Shown here: piece by piece, positions 5,047-62,094 of the stretch
How the letters are laid out: every line of letters starts with the position of its first letter
Numbering within the stretch: the stretch's first letter is position 1
Assembly: GCA_020466095.1 (NCBI GenBank)
Contig: CM035808.1
Location: forward strand, 11,267,163 to 11,331,162
DNA length: 64,000 bases
Reading direction: 5' to 3'
DNA from: Chlorops oryzae
Lineage: Eukaryota > Arthropoda > Insecta > Diptera > Chloropidae
The notes under the pieces: model-generated
The model's input: only the letters and a program-made list of their open reading frames with translations
Databases searched by the model: none
What the model was told of the DNA's origin: nothing
Made by a program: the position numbers and the translations under genes

Positions 5047-5050
5047 TGTG
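5047..5050. repeat. target-site duplication, left (TGTG)
   Basis: TGTG lies directly before the 5' LTR and again directly after the 3' LTR at 9841-9844. A 4-bp duplication is usual for Ty3/mdg4-type insertions. It confirms that this is a complete single insertion. Confidence 0.85.
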
Positions 5051-5281
5051 AGTAACATAGCAACACACATTTTCTTTTTTCTAATTTATTTTCTTTCACT
5101 TTGTCAAATTGATCAAAGTGACATTGGGAATGAAAAATGAAAGAAAATAAATTGATAAGCTTAGAAATATTTTTATAAAAATTATTATTAAGTTTTCTTT
5201 AAACAAAAAAACTTGTAAATAAAAACCTTATTATTGTTCAATAAAAACGAATTTATTAATAACAAAAAAGGTTTTGTTACT
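5051..5281 (+). repeat. 5' LTR
   Basis: 231 bp, starting AGTAAC and ending GTTACT, very A/T-rich, with AATAAA-type words in its second half that could serve as the polyadenylation signal in the 3' copy. I found no difference from the LTR at 9610-9840. Confidence 0.92.
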
Positions 5282-5294
5282 GGCGCAGTCGGTC
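5281..5294 (+). promoter_or_regulatory. primer-binding site, tRNA-Ser type
   Basis: TGGCGCAGTCGGT follows the LTR, its first T being the last LTR base. This matches the 3' end of insect tRNA-Ser including the CCA complement and is the primer type remembered for 17.6 and 297. It primes minus-strand DNA synthesis. Confidence 0.85.
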
Positions 5295-5516
5295 CTTCAG
5301 GATAAAAGAACATTATCCTTTAAACGAGCCTACATTCAAACAAGGACAAAGATATCTTTTGAATCAGATTCAAGAGTTGTGATTCCAGGAGTCTAACAAA
5401 AGGATTTCTGCGTATTGCGACTTATAAGAGGAATTAAAATCCTGCAACAACTTCAAACGTTTACTCCGAAATTCTTCCAAATAAAGCTGGTGCAAAGTGG
5501 ATCGTTTCGAATATTT

Positions 5517-6416
5517 ATGAACAGTGATCAACTGGACGTTATTTGTCAGAAATTGAAAATCCTGGAAATAAACACCGATACCATGCTGGCCAAGGAGAAA
5601 AGAGAAATGTTTTTGCAAACTATCAAACTGATTTTACCATTCAATGGCAATAGAAACTATCTGGCTTTATTTATCGACAACATAGACACCATAGTTCCTG
5701 ATTTCACTTCACTCGCTAACGAGGAAAAACCATTTTATTTTCAATGTATAACAAGTACTCTTCGCGACGCAGCCCTAGACGTTATAAGGAAAGAACAACC
5801 GAAAGATTGGCCAACACTCAAAGGACTGTTAATTGATGAATTTGCTGACCATACACCAATTACAACTCTTATTCTGTCAATCAACAACATAAAATTTAAA
5901 GGTAACGTAAAAACACTCTGCGAAGAAATTAACACCGAAATTTGCAAAATTAAGGATAACATAAAATTAAGCAAAGCCGATTTATCTACACAGTCATTTT
6001 TAAGTAACGAATTACAACAAATTAGTATTAGAACACTTAAAAGAGAATTACCTTACCATCTTACTGCTTTGATTAATGCTAACCTAGCAACGGATATTAA
6101 CTCCGCAATAAAAATTTTGAAAGAAAATGACGTATATGACGCAAAACCATTAAAGAGGAACAACTATAGAAAGAATCAAATGACATTTCAAAATAATTTA
6201 CGACCATCTTATACACCACAAAACATTTTACCTAATTCAGGATCTACCCAAAATTACAATTACCCACAACATTCATTACCTCAACCACCACTAAACTTTC
6301 AAAGGCATAATTCAAATCAATCTCGGATAAGACGTTTCGGACCCCCAGAACCAATGGACCAAGATACTGAAAATTTTCACTTAGTTGCCTCGGAACCTTA
6401 CCTGAAATTGAATTAA
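5517..6416 (+). CDS. gag: Gag of the LTR retrotransposon
   Basis: Structural protein of the retrotransposon, expected to assemble the cytoplasmic particle that packages element RNA. I chose the ATG at 5517 (product starts MNSDQLDVICQ, 299 aa). The frame is open further upstream to 5415, but only with a non-ATG codon. The N-terminal 200 residues are helical and leucine-rich (a capsid-like region around FQCITSTLRDAALDVI). The C-terminal third is rich in N, Q, P and basic residues, with no CxxCxxxxHxxxxC knuckle; nucleic-acid binding is presumably by the basic tail. The last 16 codons overlap pol, and the frameshift heptamer lies inside that overlap. No stop or frameshift damages it. Confidence 0.85.
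   Translation: MNSDQLDVICQKLKILEINTDTMLAKEKREMFLQTIKLILPFNGNRNYLALFIDNIDTIVPDFTSLANEEKPFYFQCITSTLRDAALDVIRKEQPKDWPTLKGLLIDEFADHTPITTLILSINNIKFKGNVKTLCEEINTEICKIKDNIKLSKADLSTQSFLSNELQQISIRTLKRELPYHLTALINANLATDINSAIKILKENDVYDAKPLKRNNYRKNQMTFQNNLRPSYTPQNILPNSGSTQNYNYPQHSLPQPPLNFQRHNSNQSRIRRFGPPEPMDQDTENFHLVASEPYLKLN
6371..6377 (+). promoter_or_regulatory. -1 ribosomal frameshift site (A AAT TTT)
   Basis: In the gag frame the codons read gaA AAT TTT cac, a textbook X XXY YYZ slippery heptamer. The -1 frame has a TGA at 6368-6370 immediately upstream, so pol opens exactly at the heptamer. Gag continues to its stop at 6414-6416. This fits the Gag/Gag-Pol expression known in this group. I did not establish a downstream stimulatory structure. 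Confidence 0.75.
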
Positions 6417-9400
6417 AGATTGCCAACCAACCAGTAAAATTTCTAGTAGATACAGGGTCATCAGTGAGTCTTATTAGACCCAACATACTAAAAAAAGAAA
6501 GTTCCCATACAAGACCAATTAAATTATCAACAATAACAGGAGAGATTATATTACAAGATGTAATAGAAATTTTTAGCTACAATTCAAAACGCACACTCAA
6601 GTTTTACGTTCATGACTTTTCAAAAACACATGATGGGTTACTAGGATGCGATATACTCAAGCTACTTGGCGCTAAAATAGATATAAAAGATGAAAATATA
6701 ATTTTAAATGGTATTAAATACAAATTTTTGAATAATTTAAAAAATCACCCAATACAAAAAAAATTAAATTTAGTAAGTAGTATTGAGGAAACCAAATTTA
6801 GACTAGATCATTTAAATAAAGAAGAATCATCTCAAATTAAGAAATTATTATCTAAATACAGAAATATATTCTATAAAGAAGGGGATACCTTAACATTTAC
6901 AAATAGTATAAAACACCAGATAAAAACTATTCATGAGGATCCTATATATGTCAAATCATACAGATACCCCGAAGTCCATAAAGCCGAAGTTAACAAACAA
7001 ATTAAATCAATGTTAGATCAAGGTATAATTTGCCATAGTACATCACCATACTCTGCTCCTATATGGGTCGTTCCCAAGAAATTGGATTCCTCAGGAACCC
7101 AAAAATGGCGAATTGTTGTAGACTATCGTAAGTTAAACGATATTACTATAAACGACAAATTTCCTATTCCAATTATAGATGAAATTCTTGATAAGCTTGG
7201 TCGGTGTATATACTTCAGTACCATCGATCTAGCGCAAGGCTTCCATCAAATAGAAACAGACCCAAAGGATAGAATAAAGACAGCTTTTTCCACACAAAAT
7301 GGACATTATGAGTTTTTGAGGATGCCATTTGGTCTCAAAAACGCCCCATCCACTTTCCAACGGTTGATGAATACGATCTTGGATGGACTTGTTGGAAAAG
7401 ACTGCCTTGTATATTTAGACGATATAATCGTTTTTAGTACTTCTTTGCAGGAACATATTGAATCCCTTGAAAGAGTATTTAACAGACTTAGCAAAGCTAA
7501 TCTTAAAATTCAAATAAGTAAAAGCGAATTCCTAAAAAAAGAAACTGAATTTCTAGGACACATCATTACTCCAAAAGGAATAAAACCTAACCCTAATAAA
7601 GTTGAAGCTATCTTAAAATATCCAATTCCTAAAACAGAAAAAGAGATAAAACAGTTCCTTGGTTTAGCCGGATTTTATAGGAAATTCATAAAAAACTTTT
7701 CAAAAATAACAAAACCACTAACATATTGTCTTAAAAAAGGCAATAAAATTGATATATCTAATGACGAATATAAAAACGCAGTAGACACCATAAAGCTTTT
7801 AATAACCAAAGATCCTATATTAGCCTATCCAGACTATGAAAAACTATTTACTTTAACAACAGATGCTTCTAATGTAGCACTTGGGGCAGTCCTAAGCCAA
7901 CAAGGACGTCCCATCTGCTTTGCCAGTCGCACACTTAACGAACATGAATTACATTACTCTACAACAGAAAAAGAACTACTCGCTTTAGTTTGGGCTACAA
8001 AATATTTTAGACCTTATTTATATGGTAGGAAATTCATTATCAATAGCGATCATCGACCACTTCAATGGCTTCATAATTTAAAAGAACCCAACTCCAAATT
8101 ACAGAGATGGAAACTACGATTAAATGAATTTGATTTCGATATAAAATATATTCCAGGCAAAGAAAATCATGTAGCTGACGCTTTATCACGAAACTGCGTT
8201 CAAAAATGCAACTTGGGTGAGGCAATTTCAAATGTTGCTACTATTCACTCAGCAGATGAAGACAACGAAAATTTTATTCCAATCTCTGAGAGACCTCTCA
8301 ATATTTATAAAAATCAGTTGAAATTAATTAAGAGTACCCAAGACAGCGTCCATACTGAAAAAATTTTTAAAAACAACATAACTACAATATATTATACAGA
8401 ACTTACAAAAGAAAAGATAAAAGAAATAATTAAATCATATCTCCTAAACCATCAAGTAACGATCTTCATGCCAAATAATAAAGATTTTTTAGAATTTCAG
8501 AATATTTACAAAACGTTAGTTAACAATAGACGAAATAAAATACTACGAGCTACTATCGAACTTCAAAATATCTTTAATTACCCTGATTTTAAAACAAAAG
8601 TGATCGAAACCCATCTAGAAGGATTGCACCAAGGCATAGAAAAAGTAGCGAGCTGTTTAAAAAAAAAATATTACTATCCTAATTATTTAAAAGAAATCAC
8701 CAAGATCATTAACGAATGTGAATTGTGTAATCGTTGCAAATATGATCACATTACGCACAAAATCCCTTTCAAAATCACCCCTCCCGTTTATGAAAGAAGA
8801 GAAAAATTTGTCATTGATTTTTGGGAATGGGAAAAATCTTATTTTTTGACATGTATTGATATTTATTCTAAATTCGCTACTGTAGAAAAAGTAAATGCAT
8901 TAAATTGGTTAGAAACAAAAAAAGCATTACTCAAAATTTTTAATACAATGGGCCCACCAAAAATCTTAAAGATAGATCAAGATCAAGGTATTAACAACGT
9001 TAACATAAAAGATTGGTGTACCCAATTAGACATAAAAATCGAAGTTACAACAGGAAAAACTGGAATATCAGATATAGAGCGTTTACACAAAACTCTCAAT
9101 GAAAAATTACGAATAATAAACACATCAGGCAACAAAGAACTTCAATATTTTCAAATTGAGCAAACATTGTTCACTTATAACCACAATATAGTACATTCCA
9201 CAACAGGCGAAACTCCATACAATATTTTTTTTAATCAATTACCACCGAAATTTAATCCACAATTGATTAAAGAAAATCGAATACGTAATTCAAATAAAGC
9301 ACGAAACGAAAATCAGATTGATACAAATTACGTAAATGCAGAAAACGTCAGAAAACGTCTCAATAAAAATCAAAATCCCTTTAAAGAAGTAAAATTGGTC

Positions 9401-9517
9401 AAAGCAGAAGATGATAAGGAACACTTTGTAGTAAAGTTTAAAACCAGAAATGTACGAAAATATAAGAATCATTTTAAAAGGAAAAAGAAAAATAATTATT
9501 CTATCAATGAATTGTAA
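6371..9517 (+). CDS. pol: Pol polyprotein (protease, RT, RNase H, integrase), expressed by -1 frameshift
   Basis: An uninterrupted frame of about 1,048 codons. In order: aspartic protease with the DTGSS active site at 6449-6463; reverse transcriptase with the YLDD catalytic box at 7412-7423 and flanking conserved words (FSTIDLAQGFHQI, FGLKNAPSTFQ); RNase H with TTDAS near 7856 and ADALSR near 8173; an integrase zinc finger with HLEGLH followed by CELC at 8613-8732; and an integrase core with D in VIDFW (8816), D in KIDQDQG (8975 or 8981) and E in DIERLH (9077). About 33 residues separate the last pair, close to the usual D,D35E. The first ATG/GTG-like start falls after the protease active site, so translation must enter from gag. 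All catalytic residues that I can check are present. Confidence 0.93.
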   Translation, partial: KFSLSCLGTLPEIELKIANQPVKFLVDTGSSVSLIRPNILKKESSHTRPIKLSTITGEIILQDVIEIFSYNSKRTLKFYVHDFSKTHDGLLGCDILKLLGAKIDIKDENIILNGIKYKFLNNLKNHPIQKKLNLVSSIEETKFRLDHLNKEESSQIKKLLSKYRNIFYKEGDTLTFTNSIKHQIKTIHEDPIYVKSYRYPEVHKAEVNKQIKSMLDQGIICHSTSPYSAPIWVVPKKLDSSGTQKWRIVVDYRKLNDITINDKFPIPIIDEILDKLGRCIYFSTIDLAQGFHQIETDPKDRIKTAFSTQNGHYEFLRMPFGLKNAPSTFQRLMNTILDGLVGKDCLVYLDDIIVFSTSLQEHIESLERVFNRLSKANLKIQISKSEFLKKETEFLGHIITPKGIKPNPNKVEAILKYPIPKTEKEIKQFLGLAGFYRKFIKNFSKITKPLTYCLKKGNKIDISNDEYKNAVDTIKLLITKDPILAYPDYEKLFTLTTDASNVALGAVLSQQGRPICFASRTLNEHELHYSTTEKELLALVWATKYFRPYLYGRKFIINSDHRPLQWLHNLKEPNSKLQRWKLRLNEFDFDIKYIPGKENHVADALSRNCVQKCNLGEAISNVATIHSADEDNENFIPISERPLNIYKNQLKLIKSTQDSVHTEKIFKNNITTIYYTELTKEKIKEIIKSYLLNHQVTIFMPNNKDFLEFQNIYKTLVNNRRNKILRATIELQNIFNYPDFKTKVIETHLEGLHQGIEKVASCLKKKYYYPNYLKEITKIINECELCNRCKYDHITHKIPFKITPPVYERREKFVIDFWEWEKSYFLTCIDIYSKFATVEKVNALNWLETKKALLKIFNTMGPPKILKIDQDQGINNVNIKDWCTQLDIKIEVTTGKTGISDIERLHKTLNEKLRIINTSGNKELQYFQIEQTLFTYNHNIVHSTTGETPYNIFFNQLPPKFNPQLIKENRIRNSNKARNENQIDTNYVNAENVRKRLNKNQNPFKEVKLVKAEDDKEHFVVKFKTRNVRKYKNHFKRKKKNNYSINEL

Positions 9518-9598
9518 ATATCTATTGTAACACTGCACACTTTAAAGTAAGAATGTCCTAAACTCACCAGATACGCAATGAGGACATTGCACTATTTT

Positions 9599-9609
9599 GG
9601 GGTGGGAGG
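9599..9609 (+). promoter_or_regulatory. polypurine tract
   Basis: The run ggggtgggagg lies directly against the 3' LTR. It is interrupted by one T but is the expected plus-strand primer site of the retrotransposon. Confidence 0.75.
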
Positions 9610-9840
9610 AGTAACATAGCAACACACATTTTCTTTTTTCTAATTTATTTTCTTTCACTTTGTCAAATTGATCAAAGTGACATTGGGAATGAAAAATGAA
9701 AGAAAATAAATTGATAAGCTTAGAAATATTTTTATAAAAATTATTATTAAGTTTTCTTTAAACAAAAAAACTTGTAAATAAAAACCTTATTATTGTTCAA
9801 TAAAAACGAATTTATTAATAACAAAAAAGGTTTTGTTACT
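9610..9840 (+). repeat. 3' LTR
   Basis: 231 bp matching 5051-5281 base for base as far as I can read, followed by the TGTG target duplication at 9841-9844. Confidence 0.92.
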
Positions 9841-17193: not shown

Positions 17194-17924
17194 GTAAGCG
17201 AGAGATAAAGTCCTTTCTATAATAATTTCTAACTAATTCTTGAATTTATTAAATGCCATCCAAATGTTTTTAGGGCTTTCCGAATTTTTCTCTTTTCTTC
17301 TTGTTATTTATTTAAATATAATTTTTTTTATTCAAACTTTAATCCCATTTTCTATGGAATTCAATTAGAAGTTTTTCTTCTCTCACACACGAATAGACCA
17401 CGTGTTCAAAATTCAGAGCAGACGATGCCCTAGTCTTCAATGAGATAATCAATAATTTATTCCTTTTTATAGTCAGTGGCTTCGTGCGCGTTTCAGAAAG
17501 TTCCAAGCACATGTGAATTGGTCACTTCTGGTTGTTAGTTTTGCCTTTGTATTGAAAAACATGCAACATTGGTATGTCGCTTTCACGAAGCTGGCTATTT
17601 TGCTTGTAAATGGTAAAGGATCACTGAAGGAGCTTTTTCTGTTTTTTTTTTTTTTTTTGGTTTTCCTACAATTGTCCGAATACTTAAGACTACAAATGTG
17701 CCGAATAATCAATTCGCAGGATAATCAGTTACCGGATATGCGCTAAGAATTCCTGATCAGATACTATGCGTCTATGAAACATTTCCCGAAATGTCGGACA
17801 TCGTAATAAACACAAAAAAAAAAAAAACCGGCATACCCCTATCCAAAACTTGCATTCAAATGATGTTTAATAATTTGTAGTTCCTCAATCTCCTTTTCTT
17901 CCTCCTCTTCTAGGGCGCGGGAAA
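17194..17924. other. no gene seen
   Basis: AT-rich sequence with T-runs. Overlapping short frames on both strands (17473-17746) look like chance. Confidence 0.4.
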
Positions 17925-18835
17925 AATTTCAGAAAAATATCAGAAAAATTTTTAAAAAATTTTAGAACAATTTTGGAACAATTTTAGAAAAGTTTTAGAA
18001 CAATTTTAGAACAATTTTAAAACAATTCTAAAACAATTCTAAAACAAAACAATTTTAAAACATTTTAGAATATTTTAGAACACTTTTAAACAATTTTAAA
18101 ACAATTTAAAACAATTTAAAACAATTTAAGAACAAACAATTTTAGAAACAATTTTAGAACAATTTTAGAAACAATTTTAAAACAATTTAAAACAAAACAA
18201 TTTTAGAAACAATTTTAGAACAATTTTAAAACAATTTTAGAAACAATTTTAAAACTTTTAGAACAATTTTAGAAACTTTTAAACACTTTTAGAACAATTT
18301 TAAAACAATTTTAAAACAATTTTGAAACAATTTTAAAACAAACAATTTTAGAAAAATTTTAGAACAATTTTAGAACAATTTTAGAACAATTTTAAAACAA
18401 TTCTAAAACAATTCTAAAACAAAACAATTTTAAAACAATTTTAGAAAAATTTTAAAACAATTTTAAAACTTTAAAATTTTAGAACAATTTTAGAATACTT
18501 TTAGAACACTTTTAGAACAATTTTAAAACAATTTTAAAACAATGTTGAAACAATTTTAAAACAAACAATTTTAGAAAAATTTTAGAACAATTTTAGAACA
18601 ATTTTAGAACAATTTTAAAACAATTCTAAAACAAAACAATTTTAAAACAATTTTAGAAAAATTTAAGAACAATTTTAGAACAATTTTAGAACAATTTTAA
18701 AACAATTCTAAAACAATTCTAAAACAAAACAATTTTAAAACAATTTTAGAACAATTTTAGAACATTTTAAACAATTTTAGAACAATTTTAAAACAAATTT
18801 GAAACAATTTTAAAACAATTTCAGAAAAATATCAT
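17925..18835. repeat. minisatellite, 11-bp unit ACAATTTTAGA, with higher-order blocks
   Basis: About 900 bp built from acaattttaga/acaattttaaa units with an 11-bp step. A longer block (attttagaacaatttt repeated, then acaattctaaaac, then aaaacaattttaaaac) recurs near 18346, 18570 and 18665, giving higher-order spacing of about 100 to 225 bp. It is edged on both sides by tttcagaaaaatat. Non-coding. Confidence 0.85.
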
Positions 18836-34236: not shown

Positions 34237-35513
34237 TTAGGTGTAGTAAAAAGAAATCCATTATTTTTGCATTAAATTGAGGGCTTTATTTAAGATAGTT
34301 AGAATGACCCGATTTAGGTCAAATATGCGCCGTTTTGTTCGATAACTTGTTGCCATTTTAAAGGTTATTTCATTATGCCTCTCTCATAGAAGCCCTCGTT
34401 CCTATTATCAAAAAATTGAGACAGTCGAATTTCAGAAGCCTCTCTTGAAGCGAATGTTTCACCAGCAAAATTGTTCGCCATGGACAGGAACAGATGGTAA
34501 TCACTTGGTGCCAGGTCCGGACTATAAGGTGGATGCAGAAGAACCTCCCAACCAAACTCCCGGAGCTTCTGCCGAGTCACTATCGATGTGTGTGGCCTGC
34601 GTTGTCCTGATGGAACACAATTCCTCTCCTATTGGCCAAAGCTGGCCGCTTATGGGCGATTGCTTCCTTCAGACGGTCCAATTGTTGACAGTAGAGTTTC
34701 GAGATAAGAGTTTTGCCGTATGGGAGCAGCTCATAGTAGATAATTCCCTGCCAATCCCACCAAACACACAGCAAAACCTTCCTGGCCGTCAATCCTGGCT
34801 TGGCCACCGTTTCCGCCGGTTCACCGTGTTTCGACCACGACCGTTTTCGCTTGACGTTGTCGTAAGTGACCCACTTTTCATCACCAGTCACCAACCGCTT
34901 CAGAAATGGGTCGATTTGTTGCGGTTCAGCAGCGATTCGCAGATGGAAATTCGGTCTATGAGGTTTTTTTGCGTTAACTCGTGTGGCACCCATACATCGA
35001 GCTTCTTTGTGTATCCAGCCTTATTCCAATGGTTCCAAACGGTTTTTTGTGCAATCTTTAGCTCTTTTGCAATCGAAACAGTGCTAACATGACGGTCGGA
35101 CTCGATAATTTCCATGATTTTATCGACATTTTCGACAATTGGCCTTCCAGTGCGTGGTGCATCCTTGACATCGAAGTTACCGGAACGGAATCGACGAAAC
35201 CAAAATTGCGCATGATTGGCTGTTACAGTATCAGGTCCATAAACGCTATTCACATTTTCAGCCGCCTGGCTTGCGTTTTTCCCTTATCGAAGAAAAACTG
35301 TAAAATGTAGCGAATTTTCTCTTTGCTGATGTCATCTTTGACAAGCTCTCAAACAAAACTAAATCAATCAATCAAAAAGTGTCAAAAAACTTTTTTAGTA
35401 GGAACTGTCATCTTTCAATGCCCCTAGCGAACACGTCGATTATACAACGCGAGATGCAGATAAATAACGCCATCTATTGGAAAAATAAGGATTTATTTTT
35501 AGTTCTTACCATA
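34237..35513 (-). mobile_element. decayed mariner element
   Basis: About 1.28 kb with imperfect inverted ends: left GTAAAAAGAAATCCATTATT, right in reverse complement CTAAAAATAAATCCTTATTT, each close to a TA. It encloses a damaged mariner transposase on the minus strand. The coordinates are good to a few bases because the outermost bases no longer match. Confidence 0.7.
34314..35325 (-). pseudogene. mariner transposase pseudogene
   Basis: Read on the minus strand, the pieces follow a normal mariner transposase: an N-terminal helix-turn-helix segment (FFFDKG, WFRRFRSGNFDV), the WVPHEL motif, VTGDEKW with the first catalytic D, FHQDNA with the second, and YSPDLAPSDYHLF with the third. The frame is broken by one-base deletions near 35280, near 34918 (between NRNK and DPFLKR) and near 34598 (just after the second catalytic D). 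A TAA at 34365-34367 cuts off the last 17 or so residues. The expected initiating ATG is also not in frame. The sequence differs clearly from the Himar1-like element at 60682, so it belongs to another mariner subfamily. Confidence 0.8.
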
Positions 35514-38500: not shown

Positions 38501-39410
38501 TCTTCGGTCTCAGTCTTAGTCCCTGGATCAGGTCTTCTCTTCTCTTCTCGGCCTTCTTTCGTTTAATCGTGGTGAATGTTGGGAAACAATTTGTTTTTAT
38601 TAAGCGATAAAATGAATACGATAATAATGCGGTATACAAACAAAATTTCAAAGCCACTTAGCCGTCATCTGAACGCATACATTTCACTTTTGATTATTCA
38701 ACATCGACCAGAAGCTAAAGTTCCGATGACTTAACGTGGAAAAACCATAAATTAATAAACTTTCAAACGACTGTATCTACTACAGCCGCCCGATCGACGT
38801 CATTTAGGGACTCATTAAAGCGAGTAATTTATTCAACGTAATTTACATTTTAAAATGAATTTTGTTGAAACCATTTTCCGTTATTTGATATTTGATTGGA
38901 ATATCAACATCGACGCCTCAAGTGACACTTTAGCATTTCGTTGTTGTTTTTTTTTTTGTTTTTTTTAGTGCTTTGTTTTGTCTTTTATTGACAGAAACAT
39001 TTACAATTTAGTGGAGCAGATACAGATACAGATTCAGATAGAATTTCTCCCTCCGAGGATACGAACTTTATCCTTTAAGTGTGTCTGCGTTTGAATATCC
39101 AAAGGCGTCCTTCTTGTTAGTCACTGTTGGCGTTGGAACTTTTTGTTTTGATGCCCCCAAAAGTTTCATGTTCTTTAAATTTTTTTTTAAATGAATTTCC
39201 GAATTTATCAGAAATACGGGTTTATCTTGAAATTCAAGAAAAAATGGAAAAATTTTCGAAAAATTTCCTTTTTGAGAGTGAATGGTTTAAACCAAAAATG
39301 AGCTTCTGAAATGGAAAGCTTTCTTCAAATATGGAAAAATTCGATTTTTATTTAATAACAATGGTATTTTGTGGACAAAAATAATGTCTTTTTTTCGCTG
39401 TAATTGGTTT
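35514..39410. other. no confirmed gene
   Basis: Mostly AT-rich. A plus-strand frame of 142 codons (ATG at 37246 to 37671) is longer than most chance frames here but shows no motif, and both strands are open in parts of it. I see no splice or promoter evidence. T-runs at 38430-38446 and 38950. Confidence 0.35.
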
Positions 39411-39411
39411 T

Positions 39412-39877
39412 ATTAACCCTTTACCGAATGGTATATTAAATAATTGGCGAAAAATCTTTTTCCAGCAAAAGGCCTCATTAACCCTTTAACGCATGATATA
39501 ATCAATTGAAATTTTTTTTCGCCATAAATGACTTTATTAACCCTTTAATCCATGATATATTAAATGAGTGGAAACATTTTTTTCCGAGTAAATAGGTTTT
39601 ATTAACCCTTTACTGCATGATATATTCAATTGAAATTTTTTTTCGCCATAAATGACTTTATTAACCCTTTAATCCATGATATATTAAATGAGTGGAAACA
39701 TTTTTTCCCGCAGTAAATGGTTTTATTAACCCTTTACTGCATGATATAATGAATTGGATTTTTTTTTTTTCGTTAATTATGGTTTTGTAAGTGCTTCAAT
39801 TGTAATTATAAATAGTTTTTCATCAAAAAGAACCTATGTTTTTTCCATATATGGGTTCGTTCGCAGTAAAGGGTTAA
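39412..39877. repeat. tandem array of about 62-bp units, each starting TTAACCCTTTA, closed by an inverted end
   Basis: ATTAACCCTTTA starts at 39412, 39477, 39537, 39601, 39660 and 39724 (spacing 65, 60, 64, 59, 64). Two alternating unit types (ccatgatatattaaatgagt and gcatgatataatcaattgaa) give a higher-order period of about 124 bp. The array ends with GCAGTAAAGGGTTAA at 39863-39877, the inverse of TTAACCCTTTACTGC. It can be read as a TTAA-targeted MITE with a CCCTTTACTGC terminal repeat whose left end has been multiplied. Confidence 0.7.
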
Positions 39878-40110
39878 AAACATTTAAAAGCACGTGGATA
39901 ACTTAAAATTGATAACAGCTCTGTGCCAGTGCTCGAAAAATAAATACTTTCAAAATTTTGACGGAATAAGTTTCATTCCAAAAATTTATTTTGCGGAAAG
40001 TACAGAAAAGGATAGGGGGTTGGAAGTTATGGAGTCGGAGGACAACCATATAGAGTTCGGAACAATCGCTAGAATGGTTACTAACACTGCTTAACAAATT
40101 TGGAATTTAT

Positions 40111-40984
40111 AAAAAGCAACTGAATATTTGTGCAATTTTCCTGTAGATCTCGGCCTCCTAAGCAAGAAAAAAAATTTTTTTAATTTTTTTATGGAAGAGT
40201 TTTTGAGAAAAAATTTTTTGAAATTTTTTTCAGTGCATTTCGTAGGTGCACTTGCTATTTCAAGCATATCTCGGGCCCCGATCTACCGATTTTAATAAAT
40301 ATATTTTCCAAATATAGATAATTAAGCTCCCTACAACTTTTAGAAACAAAGTTTTTGATTTGCATGAGTAGTTTTAGTGCTAGAGGTGCAATTATACAAG
40401 AAAATTGTGTTTTTTTTCAAAAAAATCAGGGTAAATTTTTCATATAAAAATTTGTAAAAAATAGAAATCGAAGTGGAAAACCCATTTTCAAATTTTTTGC
40501 GTATAGCTAAGTATTTCTTCTAAAAAATAAGCCCCGTTTGGCTAAAAGCGGTGAAAAATTTACGGAGCTATGATTTTTTTGCCAAAACACTAAAAAATCG
40601 ATATTTCACAATTTTTGCTTTGTTCACAAAACTTGTTCATATGAGCCGAAATTATTTTATGAAGGTGCAATTGAGTAAATTTTCACATATATAAATGCAT
40701 AAATGCTGCCTCTTTATTGATTAAAAATGAATGTCGTTTTGCCCTGCCTTTTAGAATATTGTGGTGGATTTGTTTACCTGCCGGTCTCAATGACCTGTAC
40801 CAGATAAAAAAGGGTGCAGTGCTTTCCCTTAGTGGAAAAAAATATAAGGTATCATGAATACGTTTTGTGCGTTAACGTCAGTTTTTATACTAAACGTGTT
40901 TCTTTACTTTCAATTTTGCCTAATGAATTGAGCGTAGTATAAAATACCTGAGGTTTTGCATACTTTACATACATACTTACATAC
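40111..40984 (+). repeat. long terminal inverted repeat, left arm
   Basis: 874 bp beginning aaaaagcaactgaatatttg and ending tacatacatacttacatac. It matches the right arm in reverse complement: the gatctcggcctcc landmark at 40146 pairs with 43820, and cctgaggttttgc at 40947 pairs with 43020. A/T-rich, no conserved frame. It lies downstream of the gene. Confidence 0.9.
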
Positions 40985-41112
40985 TTACATACATACACCG
41001 GGGCCGCTGTGATGCAGCCCACTTTAAGACAACATGAACTACCAAATTGGTACAACTCCTGTAAAACATTTGTGAAATAAGCTCTAATGCAAAAGTGTTA
41101 AAGAAATAAAAA

Positions 41113-41118
41113 TTTATT
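41113..41118 (-). terminator. polyadenylation signal AATAAA for the transposase gene
   Basis: On the minus strand AATAAA lies about 14 nt past the TAA stop, just before the left inverted repeat. The usual hexamer in the right place; cleavage site not determined. Confidence 0.5.
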
Positions 41119-41131
41119 TCCAAAATTATTT

Positions 41132-42858
41132 TTATACAATTTGAAAAAAGTTCTTGCTTCCGCTTTGTCTTTTATATTTACTACCATCATTTTCACGCAC
41201 AAGGGACCACACGTAATCACCCATCATTGCCGTGTCGAAAAGGCCGCTATAGCGATTTTCAATATCCTTTAATTGCTGATGAAAACGTTCGCCATGCTCA
41301 TCGCTTACGTCTCCTAAGTTTTCAGGGAAAAAATCCAAGTGCGAATCGAGAAAGTGGATCTTCAACGACATGTGTACTTCGGCTTTCTTATAATTCTTTA
41401 GTAGGTTATTTACTATTTGCTTGTAATCTGGACTTTTGTGGTTGCCCAAAAAATTGTGTATAACAAGTTTGAATGAGCTCCACGCTGCTGCTTCGACTGG
41501 GGACAAAAGGCTTGAGAACTCGTCGTCTTGCAAAAGTTTACGTATTTCTGGACCATTTAGAACTCCTTCCTTGAGTTTTGCGTGTGAAAGGTAGGAAAAG
41601 ATCGCCTTTAAGCGGGCAAAAGCTTCCTGTGTTCCATCTTTTGCCAATTTTTTTATAAAGTTCTTAGCAAGTCCTAATTTTATATGCAGTGGCGGTAATA
41701 TAATATTATTTTTATCAACGAGAGCAGTGCGTTGAATATTGTCTGCACCAACTATAATGTTGGTTCGCAAAGGCCAATCTTTTTTAATATAGTGTAAGTG
41801 GTCAGCGCGACTATCCCACTTGCACAAAAAACAACAATATTTTGTATATCCTCCTTGAAGCCCGCACAGAATTGCCACTACCTTGAGATCAGCGCATATT
41901 TTCCATCTATGCTTGTCATATTCAATATGATCCAAAAGCGTTTTCATTGTTTCGTAGGTTTCTTTAGAATGCGATGCATATGCGACAGGAAGAGACGGTT
42001 TTTGGTTGCCATTGTGTAGGAGGACAGCTTTTAAGCTCTCTTTGTTGCTATCGATAAATAAACGCCACTCTCCGGGATTGTAGACTTCATTGAGCTCTTC
42101 GAATAGGCCTAAAATATTGCTGCAGAAACAGATATCGTCTACTTTTGCGTAAAATTTTCCGTATTGCAAGTGCCGATTTCTGTAAATGCTTGTTTTGACA
42201 TCAGGAGCCACAAATCCGCGTTCTTTCATTCTAGATGCAAAAAGTTCAGCTTTACCCTTTGAAAAACCAAAATCACGAATCCAGTCATTTAATTCGGCCT
42301 GTGAGAGTATTCGTTGCGTTAAACTTGTTTCAAACTGACTTCCACTAGACCCCAGCATTTCCTCTGATGATCCTTCTATTTTGGGTGCTGAGCCAGGGCA
42401 TTCTGGATAAGGCACATCACTTGAATGAGGTAGAGGAAATTTTACCGAATCAACTTTCGCGTATTCCCATTTTAAATGTTTCCCAAATCCACTTCTTGCA
42501 CTAAGGCAAAAATAGCAGTCCACCGAGTGACAAAAGGGCTCACTCCATTCCATTGCCGTGTCAAAATCCATGTAACAGCTAGAATGCAAATAGTTAGTTT
42601 TTTTTATAGCGTATTAAATTTTAATTCTTACCGTTCTCCAGAAGCCCATTTTGATAACTTTCTATGACATAGGTCACATATTCTTTTAGGCGTCCACGGC
42701 TCATTGAGAGTTGGCAAAACACCGAAGTAATGGAAATAGTGCTTTTGCAGTGCTTCAGTAAACGCTAATCCTTTATTTTTTAACATATATAATCCACAAA
42801 TATTGCAAAAATCGTCCGGATTGTTTTTGCACATGAATACACGAGTTCTTTTACTCAT
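41132..42858 (-). CDS. putative transposase of the long-TIR element; two exons (42858-42632, 42578-41132)
   Basis: Joining the exons across the GT-AG intron 42631-42579 gives an uninterrupted 557-aa frame; ATG at 42858, TAA at 41132-41134. The N-terminus has CxxC pairs at residues 18/21, 61/64 and 97/100, the first two spaced like a ZAD or similar zinc domain (FCNICG, ICDLCHRKL). The central part has WRLFIDS (D252), a beta-strand-like KAVLLHNG, then WKICADLKVV (D306), followed by YCCFLCKWDSR (C324, C325, C328). The C-terminal part has HFLDSHLDFFPENLG and SDEHGERFHQ (E503, E506, H509). I read D252, D306 and one C-terminal glutamate as a candidate RNase H-like catalytic triad; this is inference. 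I recall similar uncharacterised proteins in many arthropods, but no named superfamily that I can assign with confidence. Confidence 0.75.
42579..42631 (-). other. 53-nt spliceosomal intron in the transposase gene
   Basis: Minus strand: exon ends gagaacg, then GTAAGAATT, and the acceptor is tttgcattctAG before ctgttacatgg. Without removal the first exon frame would close soon after SGER. With removal an arginine codon (cg|c) bridges the exons and the frame stays open. The length is typical of short fly introns. Confidence 0.75.
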
Positions 42859-42982
42859 TTTTTTATATTTTAAAATTTGTTTTATTTTCAATTGATGTAC
42901 GTTGTTCAAAATTTAGTTCAAGACTACTAATCTAAACGCATAAGTGTTACCCTTTTATATATTGCCATAAATTTTCTATACT

Positions 42983-43855
42983 GTATGTAAGTATGTATGT
43001 AAAGTATGCAAAACCTCAGGTATTTTATACTACGCTCAATTCATTAGGCAAAATTGAAAGTAAAGAAACACGTTTAGTATAAAAACTGACGTTAACGCAC
43101 AAAACGTATTCATGATACCTTATATTTTTTTCCACTAAGGGAAAGCACTGCACCCTTTTTTATCTGGTACAGGTCATTGAGACCGGCAGGTAAACAAATC
43201 CACCACAATATTCTAAAAGGCAGGGCAAAACGACATTCATTTTTAATCAATAAAGAGGCAGCATTTATGCATTTATATATGTGAAAATTTACTCAATTGC
43301 ACCTTCATAAAATAATTTCGGCTCATATGAACAAGTTTTGTGAACAAAGCAAAAATTGTGAAATATCGATTTTTTAGTGTTTTGGCAAAAAAATCATAGC
43401 TCCGTAAATTTTTCACCGCTTTTAGCCAAACGGGGCTTATTTTTTAGAAGAAATACTTAGCTATACGCAAAAAATTTGAAAATGGGTTTTCCACTTCGAT
43501 TTCTATTTTTTACAAATTTTTATATGAAAAATTTACCCTGATTTTTTTGAAAAAAACACAATTTTCTTGTATAATTGCACCTCTAGCACTAAAACTACTC
43601 ATGCAAATCAAAAACTTTGTTTCTAAAAGTTGTAGGGAGCTTAATTATCTATATTTGGAAAATATATTTATTAAAATCGGTAGATCGGGGCCCGAGATAT
43701 GCTTGAAATAGCAAGTGCACCTACGAAATGCACTGAAAAAAATTTCAAAAAATTTTTTCTCAAAAACTCTTCCATAAAAAAATTAAAAAAATTTTTTTTC
43801 TTGCTTAGGAGGCCGAGATCTACAGGAAAATTGCACAAATATTCAGTTGCTTTTT
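42983..43855 (-). repeat. long terminal inverted repeat, right arm
   Basis: Inverse copy of 40111-40984. It lies upstream of the transposase gene, so the promoter is probably in this arm or in the 124-bp spacer 42859-42982. Because the arms are inverse copies, a read-through transcript could fold into a long hairpin. Confidence 0.9.
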
Positions 43856-43872
43856 TTTTGTTTGACAGTGTA

Positions 43873-45019
43873 ATCGACTCCATTTTAAAAACCAACAATG
43901 TAATCCGCTGCGTGATGTTCTAACAACCCTGACAGTTAGTGGTGCTGCCATATTTTCCTATTCTTACAAAAATTGCTATATTGAAAATTATTTCTTTTTT
44001 TTAAATTTTGTATTAATTTTCTAACTTGTACTTAAATACCCTTGATAATACTGGTCCGAAGGATCGAATCTAAAGTAGAGATAAGATAAATTATTTTGTT
44101 TCCTCCAAGCGCAATGAAAACTCCAGTGAAAAGGGCCATACAAGGGCTTGGGTGCATAGGCATTTTCCATTTTTGAATGGTCGTGTTGAACCAAACCTAT
44201 CTCAAATATTGTTCCTGCATTAATATCAATTAAATGAAGGGCTGTGGTAAGCCTAAAAACCATACAAAAATACACAGAGAAAGAGCTAATATTTTATTTA
44301 AACCCTTAATGAGGGTATCGCTTTTAGCGCGTGTGCTAAGTTGTTTAAAAAGTTTTAGCATCAACAGAAAATGTTCTTCATAAAATACTATTTCTCTTAA
44401 AATATGAAAGAAAGAATTTTTTATTTGTATGTAGGTATGTATGTATATAATGGGAGGAAGATAAGTTGGAAAATAAGGAATAAATTTTTGATAATACTTT
44501 CAAGGAAGAATAAAAAAGTTCTTCCAAAGCAATGGAGAAAATTTGTTGTTGTGAATAATATAAAACAGAATAATAAAAACTATTTGCCATTTGAGAATCA
44601 CATATATGCTGGATTTAAGTCCTGTAAGCGATGGAACGTGCAGAATGAGGGGTTCTTCAAACGCGCATCGAAATAAGAAGCGAAAAATGCCCTCAGCTGC
44701 AGTCTGAAATCTTTTGATGAACGCTTTTAAAACGGCTGCTGAGGCAACTTGAGCATTGAAGGATGTGAAGGTCGTTCTTGTCTCTTGGTGGATGTATTTT
44801 GGCGTTACTGCAGAAATGTTGTGTGCAATTCATGAAAGCTTTTTAGCAACATTTGTGCCGGTATCGTCTTATTCTGAAGATCTGTGAGATATTTTAAAAC
44901 TTTGAACTAATTCACTCAGGTTAAATATGAGAAATTATTAGTTGGTTTTCATAGCAACCCTCGAAAAAAGGTGATTCGGAACCTAAAAGAAATGGTCTTA
45001 GCCGAAAAATAAGTATGTT
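43873..45019. other. no gene seen
   Basis: AT-rich flank of the long-TIR element. Short frames on both strands are without motif. Confidence 0.4.
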
Positions 45020-59056: not shown

Positions 59057-60477
59057 TCAAGAGAAAGAGAGAGTGAGAGAGAGATAGTCAGAGAGTGAGA
59101 GAGAGAGAGTGAGAAAGTGAAGAGTGAGAGAGTGAAGAGTGAGAGAGTGAGAGAGTGAGAGAGTGAGAGAGTGAGAGAGTAGAGAGTGAGAGAGTGAGAG
59201 AGTGAGAGAGTGAGAGAGTGAGAGAGTGAGAGATGAGAGGTGAGAGAGTGAGAGGGTGAGAGAGTGAAGAGTGAGAGAGAGAATGAGAGAGAGAGTGAAG
59301 AGAGAGTGAGAGAGAGAGTGAGAGAAGAGAGAGAGAGGTGAGAGAGAGTGAGAGAGGTGAGAGAGAGAGTGAGAGAAGTGAGAGAGAGTGAGAGAGAGTG
59401 AGAGAGAGTGAGAGAGAGTGAGAGAAGTGAGAGAGAGGAAGAGAGTGGAGAGAGTGAGAGAGAGTGAGAAGAGTGAGAGAGTGAGAGGAGTGAGAGAGAG
59501 TGAGGAGAGAGAAAGAGAGAAAGAGAGAAAAGAAAGAGAGAAAGAAAGAGAGAAAAGAGAAAAGAGAGAAAGAGAAAAGAGAAAAGAGAGAAAGAGAGAA
59601 AGAGGAAAGAGAGAAAGAGAGAAAGAGAGAAAGAGAGAAAGAGAGAAGAGAAAAAGAGAGAAAGAGAGAAAGAGAGAAAGAGAGAAAGGAAAGAAAGAAA
59701 GAGAAAAAGAGAGAGAAAGAGAGAGAAAGAGAGAGAAAGAGAGAGAAAGAGAAGAAAGAGAGAGAAAGAGAGAGAAAGAAGAGAAAGAGAGGAAAGAAAG
59801 AAAAAGAGAGAGAAAGAAGAGAAAGAGAGAGAAAGAGAGAGAAAGAGAGAGAAAGGGAGAGAGAAAGAGAGAGAAAGAGAGAGAAGGAGAGAGAAAAGAG
59901 AGGAAAGAAGAGAAAGAGAGAGAAAGAGAGAGAAAGAGAGAGAAAGAGAGAGAAAAGAGAGAGTGAGAGAGTGAGAGATGAGAGAGTGAGAGAGTGAGAG
60001 AGTGAGAGAGTGAGAGAGTGAGAGAGAGAGAGAGAGAGAAAGAGAGTAAGAGAGTAAGAGAGATTGAGAGAAAAAGAGAGAGGGAAAGAAAAAGAGAGGG
60101 AAAGAAAAAGAGAGGGAAAGAAAAAGAGAGTGAGAGAAAAAGAGAGAGATAAAAAGAGAGAGAGAAAGGCAGAGAGAAAGAGAGGGAGAAAGAGAGAGAG
60201 AATGAGAGAGAGAAAGAGAGAGAGAAGATGGAGAAAGAGAGAAACAGAGAAATAGAGAAACAGAGAAAGAGAGAAACAGAGAAAGAGAGAAACAGAGAAA
60301 GAGAGAAACAGAGAAAGAGAGAAACAGAGAAAGAGAGAAACAGAGAAAGAGAGAAACAGAGAAAGAGAGAAACAGAGAAAGAGAGAAACAGAGAAAGAGA
60401 GAAACAGAGAAAGAGAGAAACAGAGAAAGAGAGAAACAGAGAAAGAGAGAAACAGAGAAAGAGAGAAAGACAGAGAG
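59057..60477 (+). repeat. 1.4-kb GA-rich compound microsatellite/minisatellite
   Basis: Purine-only on the plus strand apart from scattered T and C. Four zones: GAGAGTGA-type (59057-59505), GAGAAAGA-type (59506-59955), GTGAGA-type (59956-60070), then GAGAAAG with a regular 16-bp unit GAGAAACAGAGAAAGA from about 60256 to 60470. Long open frames exist in it only because purine repeats lack stop codons; their Arg/Glu/Lys products are not genes. Confidence 0.95.
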
Positions 60478-60681
60478 ATGCGAATAATTCCTTAGTTATC
60501 TTTTTTGGCTATCCAGAATATTTTAGATGGTGCTACTACAGAAAAAGATAACATCTTGGCAATACATAAAACAACTTTCCTTTCATTTGTACTTTATCTA
60601 ACATCCTTGATTTACGACTTAATAGTGTACACAAGTGTATGGCTAACATTAAGCTTCGCTTTATCACATAAATAACTTATA

Positions 60682-60708
60682 ACAGGTTGGCTGATAAGTC
60701 CCCGGTCT
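60682..60708 (+). repeat. mariner terminal inverted repeat, left
   Basis: 27 bp from ACAGGTTGG to CCCCGGTCT, preceded by TA. It matches the right repeat in inverse without a mismatch and is the transposase binding and cleavage site in this family. Confidence 0.95.
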
Positions 60709-60860
60709 GACACATAGATGGCGTCGCTAGTATTAAATGCATATTATTTTTATATAGTGGCAACCTTCAAATGATTCGTGTCAAAATTTGACGTCTGTAA
60801 GTCAATTAGTTTGTGAGATAGAGCGTCTTTTGTGAAGCAACTTTTGTTATTGTGAAAAAA

Positions 60861-61907
60861 ATGGAAAAAAAGGAATTTCGTGTTTTGATAAAATACTGTT
60901 TTCTGAAGGGAAAAAATACAGTGGAAGCAAAAACTTGGCTTGATAATGAGTTTCCGGACTCTGCCCCAGGAAAATCGACAATAATTGATTGGTATGCAAA
61001 ATTCAAGCGTGGTGAAATGAGCACGGAGGACGGTGAACGCAGTGGACGCCCGAAAGAGGTGGTTACCGACGAAAACATCAAAAAAATTCACAAAATGATT
61101 TTGAATGACCGTAAAATGAAGTTGATCGAGATAGCAGAGGCCTTAAAGATATCAAAGGAACGTGTTGGTCATATCATTCATCAATATTTGGATATGAAAA
61201 AGCTCTGTGCAAAATGGGTGCCGCGCGAGCTCACATTTGACCAAAAACAACAACGTGTTGATGATTCTGAGCGGTGTTTGCAGCTGTTAACTCGCAATAC
61301 ACCCGAGTTTTTGCGTCGATATGTGACAATGGATGAAACATGGCTCTATCACTACACTCCTGAGTCCAATCGACAGTCGGCTGAGTGGACAGCGATCGGT
61401 GAACCGTCTCCGAAGCGTGGAAAGACTCAAAAGTCCGCTGGCAAAGTAATGGCCTCTGTTTTTTGGGATGGGCATGGAATAATTTTTATCGATTATCTTC
61501 AGAAGGGAAAAACCATCAACAGTGACTATTATATGTCGTTATTGGAGCGTTTGAAGGTCGAAATCGCCGCAAAACGGCCCCATATGAAGAAGAAAAAAGT
61601 GTTGTTCCACCAAGACAACGCACCGTGCCACAAGTCATTGAGAACGATGGCAAAAATTCATGAATTAGGCTTCGAATTGCTTCCCCACCCACCGTATTCT
61701 CCAGATCTGGCCCCCAGCGACTTTTTCTTGTTTTCAGACCTCAAAAGGATGCTCGCAGGGAAAAAATTTGGCTGCAATGAAGAGGTGATCGCCGAAACTG
61801 AGGCCTATTTTGAGGGAAAACCGAAGGAGTACTACCAAAATGGTATCAACAAATTGGAAGGTCGTTATAATCGTTGTATCGCTCTTGAAGGGAACTATGT
61901 TGAATAA
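60861..61907 (+). CDS. mariner transposase, Himar1-like, intact (348 aa)
   Basis: Cut-and-paste DDD transposase that binds the 27-bp terminal repeats and inserts at TA. I chose the ATG at 60861 (MEKKEFRVLI); upstream in-frame codons are non-ATG. The length is 348 aa, as for Himar1. Residues 1-110 hold the two helix-turn-helix DNA-binding units (FKRGEMSTEDGERSGRP between them). The WVPREL linker is at 119-124. The catalytic aspartates are D158 (VTMDETW), D252 (HQDNAPCH) and D287 (YSPDLAPSD), the last two separated by 34 residues as in mariners. No stop or frameshift. By memory only a few residues differ from the Himar1 consensus, so it may be active. The base composition is less AT-rich than the flanks, fitting recent arrival by horizontal transfer, which is common for mariners. 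Confidence 0.95.
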   Translation: MEKKEFRVLIKYCFLKGKNTVEAKTWLDNEFPDSAPGKSTIIDWYAKFKRGEMSTEDGERSGRPKEVVTDENIKKIHKMILNDRKMKLIEIAEALKISKERVGHIIHQYLDMKKLCAKWVPRELTFDQKQQRVDDSERCLQLLTRNTPEFLRRYVTMDETWLYHYTPESNRQSAEWTAIGEPSPKRGKTQKSAGKVMASVFWDGHGIIFIDYLQKGKTINSDYYMSLLERLKVEIAAKRPHMKKKKVLFHQDNAPCHKSLRTMAKIHELGFELLPHPPYSPDLAPSDFFLFSDLKRMLAGKKFGCNEEVIAETEAYFEGKPKEYYQNGINKLEGRYNRCIALEGNYVE

Positions 61908-61947
61908 TAAAAACGAATTTTGACAAAAAAATGTGTTTTTCTTTGTT

Positions 61948-61974
61948 AGACCGGGGACTTATCAGCCAACCTGT
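61948..61974 (-). repeat. mariner terminal inverted repeat, right
   Basis: Perfect inverse of 60682-60708, followed by TA at 61975-61976. Confidence 0.95.
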
Positions 61975-62094
61975 TATACATAATGCTCAAAGCTATTTGA
62001 TATGTTTGCCTAACGTTGATGACCGGAAAATCTAGCTTACAGGCTTTCCTGTGTGTAAACAGAATAAATAATGAAAGAAACTTAAATCATGAGA

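Follow-up and report, generated by a model that had tools for sequence, protein, structure and literature searches.

In a 64,000-nucleotide (nt) stretch of the Chlorops oryzae genome (contig CM035808.1, positions 11,267,163 to 11,331,162 of assembly GCA_020466095.1; hereafter the window, to which all coordinates refer), we identified a 3786-base pair (bp) element at 40085..43870 that is very likely a cut-and-paste DNA transposon belonging to Chapaev3 and, within it, to the two-exon kind represented by Merrow and Garfield. We filed it as Chapaev3 because its ends, its putative TWA target site duplication, the motifs of its transposase, and its two-exon structure agree with those published for this group. 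The apparent match to an established superfamily rests on these features rather than on a direct comparison with Repbase. Chapaev3, a member of the CMC/Transib–RAG1 group, fits the termini, the duplication, the motif set, the exon structure, and the predicted fold. A sequence-only reading of the window had recognized a transposon here, could place its transposase in no known superfamily, and had named a match to an established one as grounds for abandoning this view; since a named group fits by its features, the view is abandoned. Chapaev3 is related to the transposon family from which the antibody-gene recombinase RAG1 arose. The element looks intact and is not a new superfamily, but its repeat ends are unusually long and its N-terminal domain is predicted to be shaped like the ZAD of insect transcription factors.

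The element starts with CACTG at 40085 and ends with CAGTG at 43870, in agreement with the 5'-CAC/GTG-3' ends of Chapaev3. It lies between two copies of TAA (40082..40084 and 43871..43873, forward strand), which we regard as a 3-bp target site duplication; PMC4079192, in the text available, reports TWA duplications for the Chapaev3 elements that it covers. The reported preference of Chapaev3 for A on the 5' side and T on the 3' side of the duplication is respected in this one insertion by the 3' neighbor (T) but not by the 5' neighbor (C). To estimate how often such ends arise by chance, we shuffled the single bases of the two 66-bp end regions 20,000 times. CACTG on both ends together with an equal adjacent 3-mer was never recovered (0/20,000), while CAC/GTG ends occurred with any equal 3-mer in 122 shuffles and with an equal TWA in 15. 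The sequence-only reading had correctly located the element; its limits of 40083..43872 were slightly too wide, as the termini lie two bases further in. Neither blastn (E ≤ 1e-3) nor tblastn (E ≤ 1) found a further copy of the element within the window. A tandem repeat of ~124 bp (3.1 copies, 39389-39767) lies directly to the left of the element.

The transposase gene is located on the reverse strand and appears to consist of two exons. Exon 1 (42632..42858, 227 nt) encodes an N-terminal putative zinc domain with the pairs C18xxC21 and C61xxC64, and exon 2 (41132..42578, including the stop codon) encodes a third CxxC pair (97-100) followed by the RAG1/Transib-like catalytic core. They would be separated by a 53-nt GT-AG intron (42579..42631) predicted from the sequence. 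The spliced product would have 557 amino acids (aa), with 75.7 codons from exon 1 and 481 from exon 2, and its CxxC pairs lie at 18, 61, 97, and 325, so that the three N-terminal pairs reported earlier were all recovered. The 557-aa frame, previously described as intact, is indeed intact, but it becomes a single complete frame only upon the predicted splicing, as the uninterrupted stop-to-stop frame has 493 codons. By eye, we also noted a TATA-like stretch ~100 nt 5' of the ATG, in the segment separating this codon from the right arm's inner edge, and an AATAAA downstream of the stop codon. The predicted exon sizes agree with those of Merrow and Garfield, with exon 1 being near rather than identical in size. 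Table 1 of PMC4079192 gives, for the six Merrow and Garfield entries in which exon 2 is full length, exon sizes of 77-78 and 477-484 aa and element lengths of 2,092-2,455 bp. The available text of the same source gives Garfield_BM as 556 aa from two exons, and ascribes two exons to both Merrow and Garfield and apparently one to most other Chapaev3 transposases.

A search of ~5.8 billion proteins yielded 7993 scored candidates, 1874 of which were related to the transposase at E ≤ 1e-3. Among the best 120 of the 1874, five carried an organism name and all five were insects, which bears out the earlier mention of related uncharacterized arthropod proteins. We found no related loci in viral contigs or prokaryote genome contigs. 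Conservation was evaluated residue by residue across 55 aligned relatives drawn from these 120. The two candidate catalytic aspartates singled out by the sequence-only reading proved to be almost invariant: D252 (codon 42050..42052, reverse strand, as for all residues below) was aspartate in 55/55 rows and D306 (41888..41890) in 54/55, with asparagine in the remaining one. The proposed catalytic glutamate, E503 (41297..41299), was glutamate in 53 rows, lysine in one, and a gap in one, while E506 was glutamate in 54 of the 55 rows, with a single gap. Both cysteines of the C(2)C motif C325xxC328 (41822..41833) and the LH motif L373 H374 (41684..41689) were conserved in all 55 rows, and the histidines of the H(4)H motif H484xxxxH489 (41339..41356) in 54, with a gap in one. 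The transposase carries, in this way, the complete Chapaev3 motif set of DDE residues, C(2)C, LH, and H(4)H; the last three are reported for the Garfield transposase in the available text of PMC4079192. W442 was also among the invariant positions. At the DxxH of residues 335-338, the histidine alone was conserved, within a consensus of RAxxxHY. Further residue analogies with RAG1, namely, W893, E962, and an ExGxK context around the glutamate, were considered but given no weight in the assignment. Literature text searches for pieces of the C-terminal SDEHGERFH motif and for a PANTHER number returned nothing relevant among the papers listed.

Foldseek and VIA comparisons of the predicted exon 2 model pointed to a RAG1/Transib-type RNase H core with a zinc-binding insertion. 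The structural alignments to Transib and RAG1 (HzTransib, 6pqx; RAG1 entries) had an identity of ~10-13%. The predicted fold agrees with the earlier description of an RNase H-like transposase whose insertion probably binds zinc. The available text of PMC4411706 divides the Transib superfamily into four clades and counts Chapaev3 among them. Chapaev3 has been recorded in a fly, Calliphora vicina, according to the part of PMC3630058 available.

Several results speak for a rival reading. No Pfam match of the window exons or of 20 relatives reached the cut-off, and PDB sequence and profile searches with the transposase retrieved no transposase, with RAG1 appearing only at E 6.9. A precomputed Pfam domain was present in none of the 120 listed relatives (0/120), and the names seen among them were "hypothetical" or "uncharacterized." They would suit the proposal of the sequence-only reading, namely, that the RNase H-like transposase represents a new superfamily without a name. 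Of the comparisons with the PDB and with predicted structures that it had suggested, the former retrieved no transposase, while the latter produced the RNase H-like fold. However, this fold matches RAG1/Transib, and the testable published features of Chapaev3 are present except for the 5' neighbor of the duplication, which makes a new superfamily highly improbable.

The element could instead belong to the wider CMC/Transib group outside Chapaev3, for example, to Chapaev proper, CACTA/EnSpm, or another CMCT lineage. According to the text available from PMC12730594, C(2)C and H(3-4)H motifs are common to the CMCT group with RAG1, and the CMCT lineages mostly have CA..TG ends and make duplications of 2-5 bp, which would suit this reading. 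The 3-bp TWA duplication and the exon sizes, in contrast, point specifically to Chapaev3, and we consider membership elsewhere in the group unlikely. A domesticated or dead relic flanked by an unrelated long palindrome would agree with the presence of only one copy within the window. Against this, the arms, ends, duplication, and reading frame form a coherent whole, every motif residue is present, and the arms are free of substitutions, leaving a relic with very little probability. Chapaev3 remains the assignment that we prefer.

Starting from ends, a duplication, and conserved residues that are observed and from a fold that is predicted, we infer the chemistry, zinc binding, choice of catalytic glutamate, and mobility of the element by homology. 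Transposase dimers would pair the CAC ends, with the N-terminal zinc domain helping in the contact. The RAG1-like RNase H core, with D252, D306, and E503, would then nick at the 5'-CAC ends and free the element, while C325, C328, H484, and H489 may build a zinc site. Hairpins would be left on the flanking DNA, on the model of HzTransib and RAG1, and the freed ends would attack the target with a 3-bp stagger, leaving TWA.

The two long inverted arms are found at 40111..40984 (left, forward strand) and 42983..43855 (right, reverse strand). They pair over 873 positions without a single substitution and with one 1-bp gap, caused by an extra base at 40410 in the left arm, as anticipated by the earlier description of near-identical arms of ~874 bp. 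The tips of the element are less alike than the arms. The outermost 26 bp on the left (40085..40110, forward strand; CACTG CTT AACAAA...) differ from the outermost 15 bp on the right (43856..43870, reverse strand; CACTG TCA AACAAA...) by three substitutions and gaps, so that CACTG is followed by three unlike bases, a shared AACAAA, and then gaps. The edges of the arms fall within a poly(A) run and, on the inner side, a TACATAC simple repeat, whereas the outermost bases are unlike, which makes it probable that the long arms stem from recent inverted copying of a single subterminal region or from recent homogenization. The former could have come about by inverted duplication through template switching at microhomology, while the latter could reflect gene conversion that halted at the poly(A) and TACATAC edges. 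We also considered that the arms might be two separate inverted nonautonomous elements, which was ruled out because no GTG terminus is present at the inner arm edges.

The N-terminal domain encoded by exon 1 resembles the ZAD. Its match to the ZAD profile (PF07776) reached 20.2 bits (E 7e-4), below the Pfam cut-off of 28, while its predicted structure has a ZAD-like fold. Among the relatives, ZAD matches at E ≤ 10 were obtained for 17/45 rows and at E ≤ 1 for 16/55 rows (best 3.4e-4). PMC4411706 describes, in the text available, an N-terminal "Chapa" zinc domain of Chapaev3 common to RAG1. The window protein has three N-terminal CxxC pairs, and the RAG1 importin-binding profile (PF12560, N-terminal) was matched by 3/45 rows, the best at E 0.0064, which is below the cut-off. 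Among the titles and abstracts listed by our literature searches, none linked the ZAD to Chapaev or other transposases, and in two of these searches no listed paper contained both a Chapaev and a ZAD term.

To place the window protein among its relatives, we built a tree of the 120 listed proteins, in which it fell into a clade of 13 rows (SH-aLRT, the Shimodaira–Hasegawa-like approximate likelihood ratio test, 99). This clade holds 12 of the 13 short open reading frames (ORFs; under 500 aa) together with P0029, and the short-ORF label, carried by 13/120 rows, needed three changes on the tree. The 13-row group was fixed after this first tree, by dropping P0058 and adding P0029, and a careful tree of 47/120 rows again separated the same 13 rows by a single branch (support 100/99). 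By a simple cysteine pattern, the N-terminal domain was detected in 103/120 listed rows. It was absent from the listed ORF in 12/13 clade rows as compared to 5/107 others, and in 7/13 clade rows the sequence opens, like that of the window, with MxF where exon 2 starts. These ORF starts fit an intron 1 shared within the clade. A short ORF is nevertheless not equivalent to the presence of intron 1, because in P0023 the domain runs on uninterrupted and some ORFs owe their shortness to another cause, being cut near the C terminus. In addition, the ORFs of P0009, P0023, and P0029 end or hold an insert near the same spot, after ...G and before NMSLKIHF, suggesting that some clade members have a second intron.

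Elsewhere in the window, a young-looking long terminal repeat (LTR) retrotransposon occupies 5050-9840. Its 232-nt LTRs are 100% identical, the ORF in the gag position (5397-6410) has no Pfam match, and the pol ORF (6371-9511) encodes protease, reverse transcriptase, RNase H, and integrase zinc-binding domains, with the integrase core below the Pfam cut-off. An intact-looking mariner (60678-61978) is bounded by 35-bp terminal inverted repeats with 97% complementarity, and its 361-codon frame carries Transposase_1 together with a helix-turn-helix of the Mos1 type. The remains of another mariner transposase lie in two overlapping frames at 34586-35283 (reverse strand). We also detected ~85 copies of an 11-bp tandem repeat (17921-18830) and a 1.4-kb purine (AG) tract (59060-60478) with strong GC and AT skew.

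The biology of Chapaev3 was called largely uncharacterized in 2014, in the text available from PMC4079192. Our analysis offers a name and a likely mechanism for a very large protein family without a Pfam label among the listed relatives, and the element appears sufficiently intact for its activity as a Chapaev3 to be put to the test. Its ZAD-like exon suggests where the domain that defines the most abundant class of insect transcription factors may have come from, an origin that can be tested. The predicted exon 1 fold is like that of the ZAD in the structures of the zinc-finger transcription factors M1BP, Grauzone, CG2712, ZNF276, Pita, and Serendipity-delta, and both have four cysteines in two CxxC pairs; the ZAD is, however, joined to C2H2 fingers, whereas here the domain is joined to a transposase. 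The element also differs from Transib proper, as its 3-bp TAA contrasts with the 5-bp duplication typical of Transibs in the available part of PMC4411706. It shares unusually long terminal inverted repeats flanking a transposase gene with Galileo and Foldback-type elements, yet Galileo belongs to the P superfamily and carries a THAP domain, according to the text available from PMC3688188, while the transposase described here resembles RAG1/Transib and has a ZAD-like domain at its N terminus. The closest likeness is to Merrow and Garfield as presented in the available text of PMC4079192, which likewise have two exons of about this size, CAC/GTG ends, a TWA duplication, and the motifs C(2)C, LH, and H(4)H. 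These elements have A as the 5' neighbor of the duplication, in contrast to C here, and at 2.09-2.46 kb with ~1.7 kb of coding sequence they leave no room for two arms of 870 bp, whereas the 3786-bp Chlorops element carries near-identical arms of 873 bp.
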